Source of the DNA: Alphaproteobacteria bacterium
GTDB taxonomy: Bacteria > Pseudomonadota > Alphaproteobacteria > UBA9219 > RFNS01
DNA length: 64,000 nucleotides
Assembly (NCBI GenBank): GCA_037200005.1
Contig: JBBCGY010000001.1
Coordinates: forward strand, 1,077,812 to 1,141,811
Direction: 5' to 3'
Below, piece after piece: positions 38,636-48,027 of this stretch (the stretch's first letter is position 1; every line of letters begins with the position of its first letter). The notes beneath the pieces were generated by a model, which saw nothing but the letters and a program-made list of their open reading frames with translations, made no database searches and was not told the DNA's origin. A program made the translations under genes and the position numbers.

Positions 38636-39349
38636 ATGACTGCCATCACCCCGGAAATTCTTCTCCGCGCCTATCGGGCCGGGATTTTTCCGATGGCGGA
38701 GGATGCGTCGGCCACGGAACTCTTCTGGTACGATCCGCCTGAACGCGCCGTCCTGCCGCTCGATCGATTCCATGTGCCGGGCCGCCTGGCGCGAACGATC
38801 CGCAAGCGCCCGTACCGCATAACCGCCGACCGCGATTTCTCCGCCGTGATCGCCGCCTGCGCCGCCCCGAACGCGGCGATGAAACGCGGGCGAACCTGGA
38901 TCAATGAGGAGATCGCCGGACTTTATACCGCGCTTCACCGGCAAGGCCATGCCCACAGCCTCGAAGCCTGGCGGGACGGACGGCTGGCAGGCGGCATCTA
39001 TGGCGTCAGCATCGGCGGCGCGTTCTTCGGCGAAAGCATGTTCAGCACTGCGACCGACGCCAGCAAAATCTGCCTCGTCTATCTGGCCGCGCTGCTGCGG
39101 CGGCAGGGCTATGCGTTATTCGACGCTCAATTCATGACGCCGCATCTGCGCCAATTCGGCGCGACGGAAATCAGCCGCGCCGACTATCATGAGCGGCTGC
39201 GGAATGCTTTATCGCTTCAGTGTGAGTTTTTGGGCGAGTTTTCCGGAGATTTTTCGGGCGGCATATCCGGCACGGGCACCGACGGCGCGGGCGGCGTGCT
39301 CGACGAAGCCGCGATGGCATTCTTGCACGATATGACCCAGACATCGTAA
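38636..39349 (+). CDS. aat: Leucyl/phenylalanyl-tRNA-protein transferase Aat
   Basis: It adds Leu or Phe to N-terminal Arg/Lys of proteins, making them ClpS/ClpAP substrates. Visible: LLRAYRAGIFPMAED, FWYDPPERAVLP, IGGAFFGESMFS (catalytic region), FDAQFMTPHLRQFGA. After the normal C-terminus the protein continues with a Gly/Asp/Phe-rich tail of about 40 residues that runs antisense into the DUF2155 gene for 133 bp. That tail is probably a by-product of the overlap. Confidence 0.95.
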   Translation: MTAITPEILLRAYRAGIFPMAEDASATELFWYDPPERAVLPLDRFHVPGRLARTIRKRPYRITADRDFSAVIAACAAPNAAMKRGRTWINEEIAGLYTALHRQGHAHSLEAWRDGRLAGGIYGVSIGGAFFGESMFSTATDASKICLVYLAALLRRQGYALFDAQFMTPHLRQFGATEISRADYHERLRNALSLQCEFLGEFSGDFSGGISGTGTDGAGGVLDEAAMAFLHDMTQTS

Positions 39350-39810
39350 AGCGGATGCTCGAGCGCGCTGAGCGCCGGGTTGGACGCGAACATCCAGCCG
39401 CGAAACAGCATGATTTCCGGCTCGCCGGGCTTGATCTCGCTGATGACCATGAATACGGCGGATTCCGGTGTTTCTTCCGGCGGCGCGGTCTGGCAGCTGC
39501 GCACTTCGATCTGCATCCGGCCGAAACTATACGGCTTGCCGACCGGTAATTCGATCTGCTCCACCCGCGCCGTGACCTTGTCGAGCAAGCGCAGCACCGC
39601 AGTATCGTATGGCTCCATCGTCCGCGCCGACGCGGGCGCGGCGACACTCAACAAAATGGCAGCGATAATGCTTAGAGCAGATCGCGACAAGCTTGGCGCC
39701 TTTTTACCGCCAACCGTTCGCGTGAATCTGCTCGACAAACCAATACGTAGAGCATTCCCCGGCCTCAAAGCCTGCTCCAACCTAATCGGGGAATGCTCTA
39801 CACGGATCAC
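39217..39810 (-). CDS. DUF2155 periplasmic protein
   Basis: The C-terminal 110 residues carry the DUF2155 pattern: LRLLDKVTARVEQIELPVGKPYSFGRMQIEVRSCQTAPPEETPESAVFMVISE, then a LFRGWMFASNPALSALEHPLYDVWVISC end, usually periplasmic. The start is unclear. GTG at 39810 overlaps the mlaD stop (GTGA) but yields about 40 extra residues coded by two palindromic repeats; TTG at 39690 begins just before a standard signal peptide (LSIIAAILLSVAAPASA). The neighbourhood (mlaD, NDUFA12, aat) is typical for alphaproteobacteria. Confidence 0.85.
   Translation of the reverse strand: MIRVEHSPIRLEQALRPGNALRIGLSSRFTRTVGGKKAPSLSRSALSIIAAILLSVAAPASARTMEPYDTAVLRLLDKVTARVEQIELPVGKPYSFGRMQIEVRSCQTAPPEETPESAVFMVISEIKPGEPEIMLFRGWMFASNPALSALEHPLYDVWVISCKNAIAASSSTPPAPSVPVPDMPPEKSPENSPKNSH
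39673..39735. repeat. Nested palindromic element in the DUF2155 5' region
   Basis: GAGCAGAT-CGCG (39675-39686) pairs with CGCG-TGA-ATCTGCTC (39719-39733) around an inner TTGGCG/CGCCAA stem (39693-39698, 39708-39713). The design matches small dispersed palindromes of alphaproteobacterial genomes. Confidence 0.6.
39747..39801. repeat. Palindromic element with 15-bp arms
   Basis: GTAGAGCATTCCCCG (39747-39761) and its exact complement (39787-39801) flank a 25-bp centre. It adjoins the mlaD stop codon and, with the element at 39673-39735, makes up most of the region between mlaD and the DUF2155 signal peptide. Confidence 0.65.
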
Positions 39811-40373
39811 GGATGTTCCGGCAGATCGATTTTAGCCGCCGCGTCATTCGGCGGCGGAGGAACATCAGACGATGTAGAAGCGGGGTTACCGGCAGGTGCA
39901 GATTTCTTATCGCCGCCCTTGCCGCCAAAGACCAATTGCCCAATGAGATCGTCGAGCCTGATGGGGGGCTGAGTATGCGTAATGCGTCCGGTGCCGTCGG
40001 TCTTGATATTGTCTTCCTCGACGCCGATTTCCAGCGACAGATAACGTCCGCCCAGCAGGCTTTCGTTGGCGATCACGCCCACCGTATCGGTGGGGAGAAG
40101 AACATTATCGGCGATGGACATGGTGACCTTGACCATGAATTGATTCCGGCCCGGCTCGGTCATCAATTCCTGCCCCATGATCGTGCCGACCTTGACGCCG
40201 TTGATCATGACGTCCCCGCCGGTTTTAAGGCCGTCGGCGCGCGGGAAATTGGCGGTGACGGTATAGCCTTTCACCTTGTTGAGATCCGCGCTCTTGAACG
40301 CAAAGGTCAGAAAAAATCCCGCCGCCAGCAACACCACGGCGCCAAGCACGGTTTCGATAATATTGCGGCCCAT
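39807..40373 (-). CDS. mlaD: MlaD-family phospholipid transport protein
   Basis: A single N-terminal membrane helix (about 5-24) is followed by an MCE domain: YTVTANFPRADGLKTGGDVMINGVKVGTI and LLGGRYLSLEIG. MlaD forms the hexameric periplasmic ring of the Mla phospholipid transporter. The tail is Pro/Ser-rich. mlaE and mlaF are absent nearby; an mlaC gene lies at 6.4 kb. The NDUFA12 gene lies upstream and DUF2155 downstream on the same strand. Confidence 0.93.
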   Translation of the reverse strand: MGRNIIETVLGAVVLLAAGFFLTFAFKSADLNKVKGYTVTANFPRADGLKTGGDVMINGVKVGTIMGQELMTEPGRNQFMVKVTMSIADNVLLPTDTVGVIANESLLGGRYLSLEIGVEEDNIKTDGTGRITHTQPPIRLDDLIGQLVFGGKGGDKKSAPAGNPASTSSDVPPPPNDAAAKIDLPEHP

Positions 40374-40498
40374 AAGTTGAACTCCGTCCTCTAAGTCTTT
40401 TTACCGTTTTATCATTCCGTCACGCCCTCTTCAGGCGCGAACCCGGAACGACAACTTATAATTCAAACCGGTGCATGACAACCATCTTCCGCCGGCAA

Positions 40499-40903
40499 TT
40501 ATTCTTCCGGCTTCCACGCCTCGTAATCGCCCGTCGCGGCAGCGCGGCGGCTTCCTTGCGAAGGATGACCGGGAGGAAAATAAGCGCCCGCCGTGCCGGT
40601 CAAATTTGGCTCGTGGGGCTTTTGCCAGGGCTTGTGGAACGGGCTTGTGTCCAATATCGGCTCCTGCATCGTGTGATGCAGCCAGCCATGCCATTCCGGC
40701 GGCACTTTGCTGGCCTCCGGCTCTCCGGCATAGATCACCCAGCGCCGTTCGCGCCTGCCCGGCTCCTTGCGCCGGGAGCGGTAGTAAACATTGCCGAACT
40801 TGTCCGATCCCACTTTGACGCCGCCCGACCATGTGCCGAGCAGCGTCCCGATCTGGGACAGACGGCGGATAAAGGATAATTTCTGCGGCTGAGACATAGC
40901 CAT
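40499..40903 (-). CDS. NDUFA12-like complex I assembly/accessory protein
   Basis: The 134-residue protein shows the NDUFA12/B17.2 pattern: GTWSGGVKVGSDKFGNVYYRSRR, then RRWVIYAGEPEASKVPPEWHGWLHHTMQEP, and a C-terminal PHEPNLTGTAGAYFPPGHP. This supernumerary subunit of NADH dehydrogenase is restricted to alphaproteobacteria and mitochondria, which supports the taxonomic call. Starts at 40903 and 40897 are both possible. Confidence 0.95.
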   Translation of the reverse strand: MAMSQPQKLSFIRRLSQIGTLLGTWSGGVKVGSDKFGNVYYRSRRKEPGRRERRWVIYAGEPEASKVPPEWHGWLHHTMQEPILDTSPFHKPWQKPHEPNLTGTAGAYFPPGHPSQGSRRAAATGDYEAWKPEE

Positions 40904-42743: not shown

Positions 42744-43382
42744 TTACGATATGGCGCAGTCGGGCGTGCCCAGCCGCAAGGTCTTTTCGTTCGAATCTGC
42801 GCCGGGCCTTTGAGGCGCGGGCAAGGCAGGCACGATTTCTGAAGCGCCGGGTTGCTTCATCGCGGCCAGCAATTCACGGCCCGTCTTGAAATCGCCATGC
42901 ACATAGCTGGAGATGATGGCGCGGCCCTTGCGATAGTCTTCGGGACTGACGTCCCACTCGACATAGTGCGTCGAGCCGGTATTGCCGGCTTTAGAGGACT
43001 GGACGCTGATGCCTTCGCTCGCAAGAACGATATGCATCGATTGCATAAGGCCGAACGTATGAAAGCCTGGCCCAAGGCCAGGTTTTGACGCGTCCTCGCT
43101 AAACGGCCATTCGCGCGGCACGAAGCTCGGAACACTGATCGAAAGCAGGTGCTTCGGCTCGCCTTTGGGCGTTTGCCGGTAAGAAGCATCCAGAATCGCG
43201 GGCCGGTGCGGATCGCCATGCACGGGTTTGAGATCGCCTGAATGAGGAGCCTGCTGATAGTCCGCGGGCGCCGGATAAAGACTGACATATCTGCGCGCGC
43301 CGACCAGATAGTCCAGCGCGCCGGACAAGTCTTCGCCGGGCTGCAACGTAAAAGTGGGCATTCCGTCGTTTATTTGCGCCAT
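42744..43382 (-). CDS. Hypothetical protein downstream of the RNR-like gene
   Basis: The 212-residue hydrophilic protein has no signal peptide and no motif I know. The middle (about 78-140) alternates beta-strands and includes FHTFGLMQSMHIVLASEG, and the C-terminus is Pro-rich. It lies 75 bp downstream of the NrdJ-like gene on the same strand; a TACAAT nine bases before the ATG might be a private promoter. Whether it shares the NrdR control of its neighbour is open. Confidence 0.7.
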   Translation of the reverse strand: MAQINDGMPTFTLQPGEDLSGALDYLVGARRYVSLYPAPADYQQAPHSGDLKPVHGDPHRPAILDASYRQTPKGEPKHLLSISVPSFVPREWPFSEDASKPGLGPGFHTFGLMQSMHIVLASEGISVQSSKAGNTGSTHYVEWDVSPEDYRKGRAIISSYVHGDFKTGRELLAAMKQPGASEIVPALPAPQRPGADSNEKTLRLGTPDCAIS

Positions 43383-43457: not shown

Positions 43458-46082
43458 CTAACTCACATTATCGGCAGCTACCGTCCCCGCCCCGCTGACC
43501 CGGACGCGCAAGCGGGCGGCGGGATCGCTATCGGTGATAATGCGAAGACCGGCGCGGCGGCGCGCGGGATGAAGAGGCTTCGCATGGCTCCAGTCGAACT
43601 CGCCCAAACCATTGCCGCGTCCCTCCGCGCCGGGAGGCAAGGGCGTGGCGACCTCGATCAGCGAAGCCAGAAGAGCATCGAAAGCGTCGTCCTGCATGAA
43701 TTCCCTTACATCCTCAAAAACCGCAAGCGGCGGCATGAAACGCAGGCTCTTCAGGCCGCTCTGTTCCGCGAGGCGCGCCAGCCGCGCCGTCTCTCCGGCC
43801 GCCATATCGCGCAGGGGCAGTGGGAACGCGATATTGCCCGAGATGAAGCATTGCATCGCTCCCGCCATGCGGATAACGGCATCGGCGGCCAGTCCGCCCT
43901 CCCCTGCCGCGTCGAGGCAAGCGAATATCTGCCGATGCTCCGGCTTGAGTTCGGGAATATCTTCGAGATTGCCGATGCCGCAGCAATAAAGATTGGCAAC
44001 CTCGATTTCCTCCGCCGTGAACCCGACAGCCGCCAGCAGATCGAAATGCGGGTCGTCGCATTCCATCGCCGTCAGCCCGAATTTATCCATGCAGAAATCG
44101 CGCCCGATGACCCAGGGATGAAATGCCTGGCGGATATGCACCGCCGACGCCAGGGCGGCATCGGCTTTCTCTATCGCCGCATCGTCGAAACCGAGCGCGG
44201 CCAGACTGGCCTCATTGATGACGGGCGCGCCGCTCAGGCCGCGCCAGCCGCCATAGCCCATGACGATAGCCTGCTGCTCCATCGGTTCATAGCCAAGCGC
44301 GTCCAGAACTTCGGCAAAAGCCGGATGAAGCTGCCTGACGAATTCCTCTTCGCCAGTTTGATATTCCTGCCATAGGCCGGGAAGCGGCATGATGCCGGCG
44401 CTGTCCGCGCCGAGAAGATCGCGTATGATCCATGCCGAGTCGATGCCCGTCAGATGCAGATTGCGCAATCCCACGGTGTGAGCGGCTTCGACCGCGCGAT
44501 CCCATACGCGGCGTACGGCGGCGACAAGCGCCAGATCGGGGCTGCTATCAAGCAGCAAGGACGGCGGCGCGATCGAGACGGATTCATAGCCGTCGGTCTC
44601 GCCATAGGCGGCGCGGCGCTGGTTGCGCATCAGGCGCAGCGTCTCGTCGCGATGTTCCGGGAATCCTCCCGCCATGCCGAGCGAAGCGGCAAGATCGCCC
44701 GACGCCGCCAGCGCCGCGCCGGTCATCAGGGCGGCAATCGCTCCCGCCATCGAGCGGCCATGCGGCGTATCGTAGCCATGGCCCAGCGCCATCAGCAGCG
44801 GTGCGAGATTGGCAAGGCCGAGGGACAGCGGGCGATCCTCCTGCGCGCGGCGGGCGGCATTCTCGTCGTCATAGGAGGATAGTTGCAGCGTAAGGTCGAG
44901 CGCGATCGTCGCGAGACTGCACGCGTGAGCGAAACCGACATTGTCGAACCCGCCTTCGTCGCGCAGGAACGCTTCCAGATTGATCGCGCCGCGGCTGACG
45001 ACGCCGCCCGCTTCGAGCAGCGCCCCGCCGTCTTCGCTGATGCCAAGATGGCGGCGAGGCGAATGCAGCCCCATCCAGTCTTCGATCTGGCGCGCGAACA
45101 GGATGCCGGGATCGCCATGCTGTCCCATCGCATTGGTAAGATCGCGCCATAGGAAAGAATCTTTGGCGTCTTTGAGCAGCACATGACGGCCGGAGCCGGA
45201 CTCAGTCTGTGCGTCCGGCGCTTGATCGAAACGCGGCAGCGGCTGCATCGGCTCTCCGGCGCGTCCGCGCTCGATGACGGTTTGCAGCAGTTTCTCGCTT
45301 ATTCCCAGCGCATGCGCGGCATTGACCAGCGGCTCAAGCTCGTCCGGATTTAATGACGCCGCGTAAATCCGTTCCAATTGCCGCTCTACCAGCCTGCCGC
45401 CGACGGCGCGCGCCGATAATTCGGCTTCGGCGAAATATTTGCGGTTGATGTAATCCCGCAGATCGGGGCCGTCCGCCGCCATGATCCCGGCATTGCCGAC
45501 CGGTTCGAGAAGATCGGGATGCATGCGATCCAGCGCCCGCGTCCGCAAGCGGTTGCTGCGCGGATCGATCCAGACGCGCTCCCGCGCCTCGCCCTCGAGG
45601 CCATAGGCCCAGTAAAGCCCCGTCAGCCGGTAATGCGCGGGCGCCAGCGCCAGCCGCTGCGTCGCGAGCAAATAGCGCATCTCGTCGTAAAAGGCGTGGG
45701 CGTCGGCTTCGGCGGTAAAATAACCGGCCTTCCAGCCGGTATAGGCCAGCGCTCCGGCGATGCGGTCGAAAACCTGCTTGAAGCTGGTTTCATAGCCGTC
45801 CTCGGCGATGCCGTTGCGGTCATAGGGCTCGCAGCGCCACAGCCAGCTCGGCACACCATGCTCCTCGACCTGCCGGAGCTTCTGGGGCACGTCCTGCTTT
45901 TTCAGGCCGAGATCAAGCAGCGCCGCGACGGACTGGTATGGCCAGTCGGCCGGGATTTCGACCTGCGGAAAGCGCGCTTCCGCCCTGCCGTTCTCGCCCG
46001 TCAGCTCCAGATCGGCGCGCGCGAACGGAACGCCCGCATAAGCATCCTCGCCATTGACAGTAAATAGCCGCCGTATCCGCAA
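43458..46082 (-). CDS. NrdJ-like class II ribonucleotide reductase homolog, apparently inactive
   Basis: The N-terminus follows alphaproteobacterial NrdJ closely: RRLFTVNGEDAYAGVPF, VEEHGVPSWLWR, KQVFDRIAGALAYTGWKAGYF, FYDEMRYLLATQR, GLYWAYG. Matches continue at RPLSLGLANLAPLLM, LMRNQRRAAYG and IRMAGAMQCFISGNI. Key residues are lost. The block with the first active-site Cys (after residue 180) is deleted, the Asn-Pro-Cys-Ser-Glu loop reads LGISED (346-351), and the second redox Cys position reads VVSRGAINL (361-369). NrdJ is usually about 1,200 aa; this is 874. Probably a pseudoenzyme with a structural or regulatory role. NrdR boxes lie upstream. Confidence 0.8.
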   Translation of the reverse strand: MRIRRLFTVNGEDAYAGVPFARADLELTGENGRAEARFPQVEIPADWPYQSVAALLDLGLKKQDVPQKLRQVEEHGVPSWLWRCEPYDRNGIAEDGYETSFKQVFDRIAGALAYTGWKAGYFTAEADAHAFYDEMRYLLATQRLALAPAHYRLTGLYWAYGLEGEARERVWIDPRSNRLRTRALDRMHPDLLEPVGNAGIMAADGPDLRDYINRKYFAEAELSARAVGGRLVERQLERIYAASLNPDELEPLVNAAHALGISEKLLQTVIERGRAGEPMQPLPRFDQAPDAQTESGSGRHVLLKDAKDSFLWRDLTNAMGQHGDPGILFARQIEDWMGLHSPRRHLGISEDGGALLEAGGVVSRGAINLEAFLRDEGGFDNVGFAHACSLATIALDLTLQLSSYDDENAARRAQEDRPLSLGLANLAPLLMALGHGYDTPHGRSMAGAIAALMTGAALAASGDLAASLGMAGGFPEHRDETLRLMRNQRRAAYGETDGYESVSIAPPSLLLDSSPDLALVAAVRRVWDRAVEAAHTVGLRNLHLTGIDSAWIIRDLLGADSAGIMPLPGLWQEYQTGEEEFVRQLHPAFAEVLDALGYEPMEQQAIVMGYGGWRGLSGAPVINEASLAALGFDDAAIEKADAALASAVHIRQAFHPWVIGRDFCMDKFGLTAMECDDPHFDLLAAVGFTAEEIEVANLYCCGIGNLEDIPELKPEHRQIFACLDAAGEGGLAADAVIRMAGAMQCFISGNIAFPLPLRDMAAGETARLARLAEQSGLKSLRFMPPLAVFEDVREFMQDDAFDALLASLIEVATPLPPGAEGRGNGLGEFDWSHAKPLHPARRRAGLRIITDSDPAARLRVRVSGAGTVAADNVS

Positions 46083-46106: not shown

Positions 46107-46154
46107 TCACGGCATATAGTGGTGCTTGTGGATAATTTATACAATATGTGGTGT
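46107..46154 (-). promoter_or_regulatory. Tandem NrdR boxes
   Basis: On the minus strand, ACACCACATATTGTAT (46139-46154) and CCACTATATGCCGTGA (46107-46122) match the NrdR consensus (about ACACWATATATWGTGT) at roughly 13 and 11 of 16 positions. Their centres are 32 bp apart, three helical turns, as NrdR requires. They lie 25-72 bp before the RNR-like ATG. Confidence 0.7.
46126..46135 (-). promoter_or_regulatory. Perfect DnaA box between the NrdR boxes
   Basis: TTATCCACAA on the minus strand is the canonical DnaA 9-mer plus one base and sits inside the 16-bp spacer between the two NrdR boxes. A weaker TTACCCACA occurs at 46170-46178 on the plus strand. DnaA control of nrd genes is known in other bacteria. 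Confidence 0.55.
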
Positions 46155-46456: not shown

Positions 46457-46972
46457 TTAATAACGGAATTTGACAGGCAGCTTGTGGTTCTCAACAATTT
46501 TCTGAAGTGCTGTATAGTTCCATTCGATATGGGTGAGCTTACTATCGGGGGGCGAATATGGCTTCAGTTCCGCACATGAGCATTGAAAGCAAACTTTGAG
46601 ATGTCCTAGATACTGCCCATCCTTATCGTAAAACAAAAAAGCATGCCGAGGAATGCAACATGCAGCCGACCATGTCGGCATCGGAGCATAAAAAACAGAG
46701 TGACGCAGGACTTCAATCTCATAGGGAGTTAACGACCCACCCTCCATAGGAGGCAAATCATTTTTAGGTTTCTCCTTGTCCGTTAATGCGGCCTTTAAAA
46801 CAGTGCCATCCTTTAGAACATAGATAGATAATTCGCCAGCATACAGCTTCACATCGACTGTCCCAACAGGCAATTCCGCGATGACCTTCTGTTCATCTTT
46901 GGGTAACGGCGCACTGCAGCACGTCAAGGCGACTAGACAAACCGCGAGCATAAATTTCATTTTCAAATGCAT
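46457..46972 (-). CDS. Hypothetical exported (lipo)protein
   Basis: The frame runs upstream into the epimerase, but the ATG at 46972 has a GAGGGGG site and starts a signal peptide (MHLKMKFMLAVCLVALTCCS). The LTCC position could be a poor lipobox. The mature 150 residues contain four further cysteines (ACC, CFQCSC) and a FLFYDKDGQYLGHLKVCF strand pair. No family recognised. It ends four bases from the tRNA-Gln gene on the other strand. Confidence 0.7.
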   Translation of the reverse strand: MHLKMKFMLAVCLVALTCCSAPLPKDEQKVIAELPVGTVDVKLYAGELSIYVLKDGTVLKAALTDKEKPKNDLPPMEGGSLTPYEIEVLRHSVFYAPMPTWSAACCIPRHAFLFYDKDGQYLGHLKVCFQCSCAELKPYSPPDSKLTHIEWNYTALQKIVENHKLPVKFRY

Positions 46973-47004
46973 AACTGCCCCCTCGTTACAGATCGGTAAG
47001 CCTC

Positions 47005-48027
47005 TCAAATAATCCGGCCGTTCAGCTGAATCCGGTCGATCACCTGGCCCCATTCCATCAGTGATTGATACCAGCCAAGCGTAACGGTCGTAAGATCGTC
47101 CGCCGATACGCTGCCCGTCTCCAGCGCGCCGATAATTTCCTCTATGCCCGCCGGCACGTCGCGACCGGCGGCAAAGCCCAGCACGCGCTTGATTTTCCGG
47201 CAATCGAGCCGGTAACTGCGGTCGTCGCTGTCATTGGCGACCTGATGCTGTATCGTGCCGGGCAAAGCGGCCGCGACCATATCGGCCAGCTGGCCAATGC
47301 TGAAATTCATTCCGTCGTCGCCGAGGTTGAAGGTCTCGCCCGCTACGATCGAAGCAGGCGCATCCAGCGCCAGCAGCAAAGCCTGAACGCCATCCTGCAC
47401 ATGGATGAAGGGCCGCCACTGCTGCCCGCCATGCACGAAAATTTCGCCGTCGCGCCAAGCGTGCATCGTCATCACATTCACCGCCAGATCGAAACGCATG
47501 CGCGGCGCCAGCCCGAAAATAGTGGCGCTGCGCATAACGACGATCTCGAAATCCGGCGCCTGCAATTCGAGCAGCGCTTGCTCGACCTGCAGTTTGGAGC
47601 GCGCATATTCCGTAAGCGGCGCGCAAGCCGCGTCCTCGGCCATCGGCACGCCGCCGCTGCTGCCATATACGGCGGCCGAGCTGACGAAAATATACCGCCG
47701 CACGCCCTGCTTTCTCGCGGCGCGCACGACACGAAGGCATCCGTCGACATTGATTTGACGCGTCAAGTCGGCATCGATGGCGGCGCACGGATCATTGCTG
47801 AGGCCGGCCAAGTCTATGACCGCCTCGACGCCGTCCAAAGCCCCCGGGTCGAAATCGCGGACATCGTCGGTCAACACCGTGAATCGCGGATGCCGCGCCA
47901 GCGCTCCGAGCTTCTCCACCCCGAAATAATAACGGTCCAGTCCGATGACGCGATGGCCTTGCGTCACGAGCGCCTGGCATAGCGGGATGCCGACATATCC
48001 CCCGGCGCCGGTCACTAAAATATTCAT
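47005..48027 (-). CDS. NAD-dependent sugar epimerase/dehydratase (extended SDR)
   Basis: Rossmann motif MNILVTGAGGYVGIPL (GxxGxxG), an early LDRYYFG loop, SSAAVYG and the catalytic YxxxK as YARSK (about 137-141). The C-terminal substrate part has the GGQQWRPFIHVQD region typical of nucleotide-sugar enzymes. With the aminotransferase upstream it could make a modified sugar for lipopolysaccharide or glycan; the exact product cannot be read from sequence. Confidence 0.9.
   Translation of the reverse strand: MNILVTGAGGYVGIPLCQALVTQGHRVIGLDRYYFGVEKLGALARHPRFTVLTDDVRDFDPGALDGVEAVIDLAGLSNDPCAAIDADLTRQINVDGCLRVVRAARKQGVRRYIFVSSAAVYGSSGGVPMAEDAACAPLTEYARSKLQVEQALLELQAPDFEIVVMRSATIFGLAPRMRFDLAVNVMTMHAWRDGEIFVHGGQQWRPFIHVQDGVQALLLALDAPASIVAGETFNLGDDGMNFSIGQLADMVAAALPGTIQHQVANDSDDRSYRLDCRKIKRVLGFAAGRDVPAGIEEIIGALETGSVSADDLTTVTLGWYQSLMEWGQVIDRIQLNGRII

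Follow-up and report, generated by a model that had tools for sequence, protein, structure and literature searches.

Background

Why should a bacterium hold on to a ribonucleotide reductase (RNR) gene that seems no longer to encode a ribonucleotide reductase? The question is posed by a long open reading frame in a window of 64,000 nucleotides, the whole stretch of DNA analysed here, from the genome of an alphaproteobacterium. A sequence-only reading had described its product as a homologue of the class II enzyme NrdJ, aligned with it along its full length and stripped of all active-site cysteines, and had pictured the gene as controlled by NrdR and maintained for a non-catalytic role, for instance as a partner that assists the true NrdJ allosterically or during assembly. 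The answer that we favour, as reasonably probable, is that the gene encodes an NrdR-controlled pseudoenzyme which would preserve a non-catalytic role of NrdJ itself.

Large-subunit RNR homologues without catalysis, kept for other roles, are known from viruses: the betaherpesvirus R1 homologues M45 (MCMV) and UL45 (HCMV) have no catalytic function and are retained for other purposes (PMC3497035). Those proteins are viral and derived from class I, whereas the one described here is bacterial, derived from class II and order-wide, with NrdR-type boxes and no known effector domain. Parts of class II RNRs also exist apart from the catalytic domain, as in nrdJb (PMC5704485) and in stand-alone TSCPD or Cys-rich-domain proteins; NrdJb, however, pairs with a catalytic NrdJa, while the genome considered here is without a catalytic NrdJ and the Cys-rich tail of its protein is gone. 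The literature searched yielded no cellular RNR that is catalytically dead and yet retained by selection, the known precedent being the herpesviral R1. A search outside the subscription literature for 'NrdJ' together with 'pseudoenzyme' returned no paper, and in term searches of three RNR surveys (PMC9531940, PMC2795772, PMC3019208) neither inactive RNRs nor RNR pseudogenes came up.

Results and discussion

A class II reductase homologue stripped of its active site

The open reading frame of 874 codons begins with TTG, ahead of which stands GGGAGG, and this start agrees with the MRIxR start of its relatives. The gene and the parts of its product are laid out as follows.

43458..46082, minus strand: NrdJ-derived, apparently non-catalytic protein of 874 aa, with a predicted TTG start
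45516..46082, minus strand: N-terminal domain, PF08471-like, aa 1-189, ~39% identity to canonical NrdJ
45174..45515, minus strand: what is left of the barrel's first half, aa 190-303, after deletion of the first redox Cys and of the specificity-loop region
44988..45050, minus strand: region that the NrdJ alignment places at the NPCSE thiyl loop and partner Cys, aa 345-365, HLGISEDGGALLEAGGVVSRG
44217..44990, minus strand: latter half of the reductase barrel, matched by PF02867, aa 365-622, in which the APTGT phosphate loop reads DSAWI
43818..44348, minus strand: helical insert of this NrdJ type, aa 579-755, holding C664 and retained in all degenerate lineages
43458..43601, minus strand: C-terminal tail without the Cys-rich part, like the extreme C-terminus of relatives G002 and G003 after deletion of the TSCPD domain

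The homology to class II NrdJ first proposed exceeds what chance would give. NrdJ of R. sphaeroides (7b9p) matches the window protein in two stretches, residues 2-189 and 304-779, at E = 3e-112; PF08471 (5e-18; 65.5 bits, above its cut-off of 27) identifies the class II N-terminal domain; PF02867 matches at 6e-25; and the NCBIfam model PRK07562 matches at 1e-129, with 434 bits that fall far below its equivalog cut-off of 1737 bits. The supposed full-length alignment stands for the two stretches just given and fails elsewhere, as most of residues ~190-300 is missing or cannot be aligned, and the TSCPD domain at the C-terminus has been deleted. A complete PF02867 barrel is likewise absent, the best stretch covering profile positions 230-456 of 523 and the first half being deleted or unalignable. 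Residues 309-470 also show a weak profile match to PRK06948, a 'ribonucleotide reductase-like protein', but its score of 50 bits, where the cut-off is 906, leaves the window protein outside that family.

In the alignment, the NrdJ stretch GSNPCSEYMFLDDTACN pairs with LGISEDGGALLEAGGVVSR of the window protein, which is without the HACFIQ segment that holds the first redox Cys and without the Cys-rich tail. The alignment columns extend these losses to the aligned members of the order: the first redox Cys and the thiyl Cys of the NPCSE loop are each found in 0/23 order members versus 15/15 canonical NrdJ, the tail Cys in 0/23 versus 13/15 (2 of the 15 canonical sequences are cut at contig ends), and the partner Cys, missing from the window protein, in one of the 23 (G002, the least eroded) versus 15/15. 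The claim that all active-site cysteines are gone is thus upheld, the first redox Cys having disappeared with its segment and the thiyl loop and partner Cys having been replaced. Judged by alignment, the window protein is devoid of every residue required for ribonucleotide reduction, and RNR activity has presumably been lost.

That the protein remains an enzyme, working through another active site or by another reaction, is very improbable. The C-terminal half of the barrel is in large part preserved and C664 is invariant in the family, but this residue, the only Cys conserved in 23/23 members, lies in the helical insert and also occurs in 12/15 canonical NrdJ. No alignment column places any other cysteine in an active-site role, no polar motif peculiar to the family has taken the place of the lost site (14 conserved positions are specific to the family, few of them polar), and two families of the order, f2 and f3, are without half of the barrel.

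The relic occupies the ancestral nrdJ locus

Most relics of the order lie divergent from an NDUFA12-MlaD-DUF2155-aat-accC cluster, and the intact nrdJ of several other orders sits at this same cluster. In the window, the ancestral neighbours have been displaced.

39217..40903, minus strand: genes for DUF2155, MlaD and NDUFA12, ancestrally adjacent to nrdJ and in the window ~2.6 kb downstream of the relic

Because the locus is common to the relic and to intact nrdJ elsewhere, gene order indicates decay in place: the relic is the lineage's own nrdJ, decayed at its ancestral locus, rather than a paralogue beside an active NrdJ. The open reading frames that flank it (42744-43382 and 46457-47203, both on the minus strand) have no Pfam match.

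No second or full nrdJ was found elsewhere in the window genome, whose RNR in use is the class I pair NrdA and NrdB, with the NrdA active-site motifs SCFL, NLCSE, AVCC and CLAC intact. The partnership with a true NrdJ that had been suggested is therefore excluded in a genome that has class I NrdA/NrdB only. The PF01923 adenosyltransferase was found in 0/33 genomes of the order versus 23/25 outside it, and none of the 33 had a PF02572 match above cut-off; a supply of adenosylcobalamin was accordingly not detected in the order, by searches that cover synthesis through PF01923 and PF02572 as distinct from uptake of ready-made AdoCbl.

The order makes its dNTPs with class I and/or class III RNR. 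The relic is kept both in class I-only genomes (G000, G002, G004, G013, G016) and in class III-only genomes (G007, G015, G017, G019, G022, G024), and a tie between its retention and class I RNR was rejected on account of the latter. Its presence in genomes of both kinds makes a dedicated RNR partner unlikely. Such a protein would be a subunit that regulates or assembles the RNR in use, NrdAB or NrdD, working for example in mixed oligomers formed through the old NrdJ surfaces; in favour of this reading, the NrdR-type boxes described below suggest that the relic is regulated together with nrdA and nrdD. However, the RNRs of the class I-only and class III-only genomes share little surface, and the relic has lost the specificity-site region on which class II allostery relies.

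Two further observations concern the RNR repertoire of the order. The class III NrdD is the only active RNR detected in the class III-only genomes listed above, which suggests that the order includes anaerobes, while other members use class I. Genome G020 carries extra class I RNR genes (G020:C173, C12, C192 and C31), including a 928-aa alpha subunit and several NrdB matches, for which contamination, phage or transfer are candidate sources.

NrdR-type boxes precede the relic

NrdR control of the gene had been claimed at the outset, and the boxes on which such control would depend are borne out by motif match.

46107..46154, minus strand: tandem NrdR-type boxes immediately ahead of the start codon, ACACCACATATTGTAT and CCACTATATGCCGTGA, with a start-to-start spacing of 32 bp

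Sites were scored against a published NrdR-box consensus (PMC4009431), with a tandem site defined by a score of >=23 of 32 and box starts 31-32 bp apart. The site above is the sole one to reach this score within the 64-kb window, and in 462 kb of related loci 20/20 tandem sites lie <=250 bases from the start of nrdJ or of a relic. Permuted palindromes gave a mean of 0.44 sites; one permutation in 100 reached 17, presumably being near the true motif. Similar boxes stand before the true nrdA in relatives G004, G005, G013 and G016, and before the true nrdD in relatives G007, G015, G017 and G026; none was found in 6.2 kb before the window organism's own nrdA, using a crude score. The genome of the window organism has an NrdR gene, and NrdR is present in all 21 of the good genomes. 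From the tandem boxes and the presence of NrdR in the genome we strongly infer that transcription of the relic still follows the dNTP pool via NrdR, as that of the true nrdA and nrdD of its relatives would.

Graded erosion across the order

A substantial NrdJ-derived protein occurs in 29 of the 33 sampled order genomes, distributed over three families (f1, f2 and f3). Genome G029 holds only a 134-codon fragment, and the relic is absent from three genomes (G001, G009 and G026), so that it is not universally required in the order. The open frames range from 528 to 1089 codons, the shortest being cut by a contig end, and frames of 680-1089 codons contain no internal stop codons. In f1 the central part of the protein is mostly retained, and the relics of f2 and f3 are without nearly the entire first half of the barrel. 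Branch lengths in the NrdJ tree, roughly 0.3-0.9 for the relics versus about 0.2 for NrdJ, point to faster evolution.

The TSCPD domain (PF12637) is retained in f2 and in two f1 genomes and lost in the window protein and in f3; no TSCPD was found anywhere in the genomes of the window organism or f3 (~20 genomes). Relics of f3 carry in its place a basic tail with a net charge of +6 to +16. Such tails, for example those of L048 and L052, measure 33-59 aa, have a pI of 10-12 and may bind nucleic acid.

This pattern could mean that TSCPD is the selected part of the protein and that the TSCPD-less version in the window is on its way out. The TSCPD of f2 is 79% identical to that of canonical NrdJ while the remainder of the f2 relic falls below 40%, and G001 keeps a separate ~190-aa TSCPD protein and no relic. 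We nevertheless consider this account quite unlikely, for f3 and the window protein are without TSCPD, and yet f3 pairs show an omega of ~0.1 over what remains. The stand-alone protein of G001, of NrdJ origin, is encoded at a different place, G001:C104, L133:4268-4885, near ubiE, recN and ligA, in a genome of the same family as the window organism.

Purifying selection on a presumably non-catalytic protein

In its two closest pairs, omega values (Nei-Gojobori) for the relic were 0.037 in the pair G004/G008, compared with 0.038-0.073 for neighbour genes, and 0.114 in the pair G017/G022, compared with 0.116-0.274; in both pairs, omega is low along the entire gene. More distant relic pairs gave 0.07-0.31, with dS saturated. 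These figures (0.037-0.31, aligned pairs) derive from relatives within the order, the window species being without a close relative in the data. The family is under purifying selection as strong as that on its neighbouring genes. The view that the gene is maintained in a non-catalytic capacity therefore agrees with its relatives, in which omega is far below 1 and similar to that of neighbour genes. With frames open and no omega near 1 among the pairs, the signature that the sequence-only reading had named for a decaying pseudogene is missing.

Piecewise deletions and accelerated divergence, together with absence from three genomes and a split copy in another (G330, below), are features that a slowly decaying pseudogene might share. 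Such decay is nonetheless most improbable: frames are open in three families, omega matches that of the neighbours, the promoter boxes are retained, and 88 positions, common to NrdJ, are conserved in >=80% of the family.

Probable independent decay outside the order

Two families outside the order, f107 and f123, also carry NrdJ proteins devoid of the active site, again at the ancestral locus, with an omega of 0.16-0.21 where measurable. The NrdJ tree groups all degenerate lineages together, probably through long-branch attraction. A neighbour-gene tree rejects a single clade of the order, f107 and f123 (AU p = 0.005) and also a clade of the order with f123 (p = 0.013), while clades of the order with f107 (0.12) and of f107 with f123 (0.09) are not rejected. 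Since one clade for the three lineages is rejected, the trees indicate at least two independent decays of nrdJ, unless the locus has been transferred. Loss of B12 fits as a cause within the order but not in general, as f107 and f123 retain the adenosyltransferase; it was thus not required for the decay.

In G330, a one-contig genome of f107, the relic is split into an N-terminal piece (L104) and a C-terminal piece (L105). The pieces, at G330:C1:1516694 and G330:C1:3615924, are ~2.1 Mb apart, by rearrangement or misassembly.

A possible second function of NrdJ

Set beside class II NrdJ (R. sphaeroides 7b9p/7b9q; PRK07562; NrdJd-like, with a Cys-rich domain), the relic is alike in its N-terminal domain, the second half of its barrel, its helical insert, its locus and its NrdR-type boxes; it differs in having no redox or thiyl Cys, NPCSE, APTGT, specificity loops or Cys-rich tail, and in belonging to an order in which adenosylcobalamin supply was not detected. 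Among the parts that every degenerate lineage has kept are the N-terminal domain and the helical insert. A structure prediction for the whole protein, made with few homologues, reached a pLDDT of 40.6 and was set aside. The helical insert alone was predicted as a helical bundle (pLDDT 77.6) whose only match is R. sphaeroides NrdJ. A defence-system match was looked for and none was found.

Tentatively, and as something that may well be so but that we would stop short of calling probable, we propose that alphaproteobacterial NrdJ has a second, non-catalytic function in its N-terminal domain and helical insert, and that this mattered enough for the protein and its NrdR control to be kept in at least two independent lineages, while the active site was stripped once class I or class III enzymes had taken over dNTP synthesis. 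The gene would have outlived catalysis because the ancestral NrdJ probably had this second function already. With moderate confidence, the pseudoenzyme may be pictured as being made when dATP falls and NrdR leaves the promoter, and as acting by binding instead of catalysis. The N-terminal domain and helical insert (aa 579-755) would then be the scaffold that receives a partner present in class I-only as well as class III-only cells; nucleic acid would be one candidate, and the machinery of replication, of repair or of the nucleotide pool another.

Conclusions

Similarity-based naming could label these relics B12-dependent reductases and thereby attribute a false B12 dependence to an entire order. 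If the relic does keep an old second role of NrdJ, alphaproteobacterial RNR biology would have an unrecognised arm, and the intact NrdJ of model species would be a bifunctional protein.
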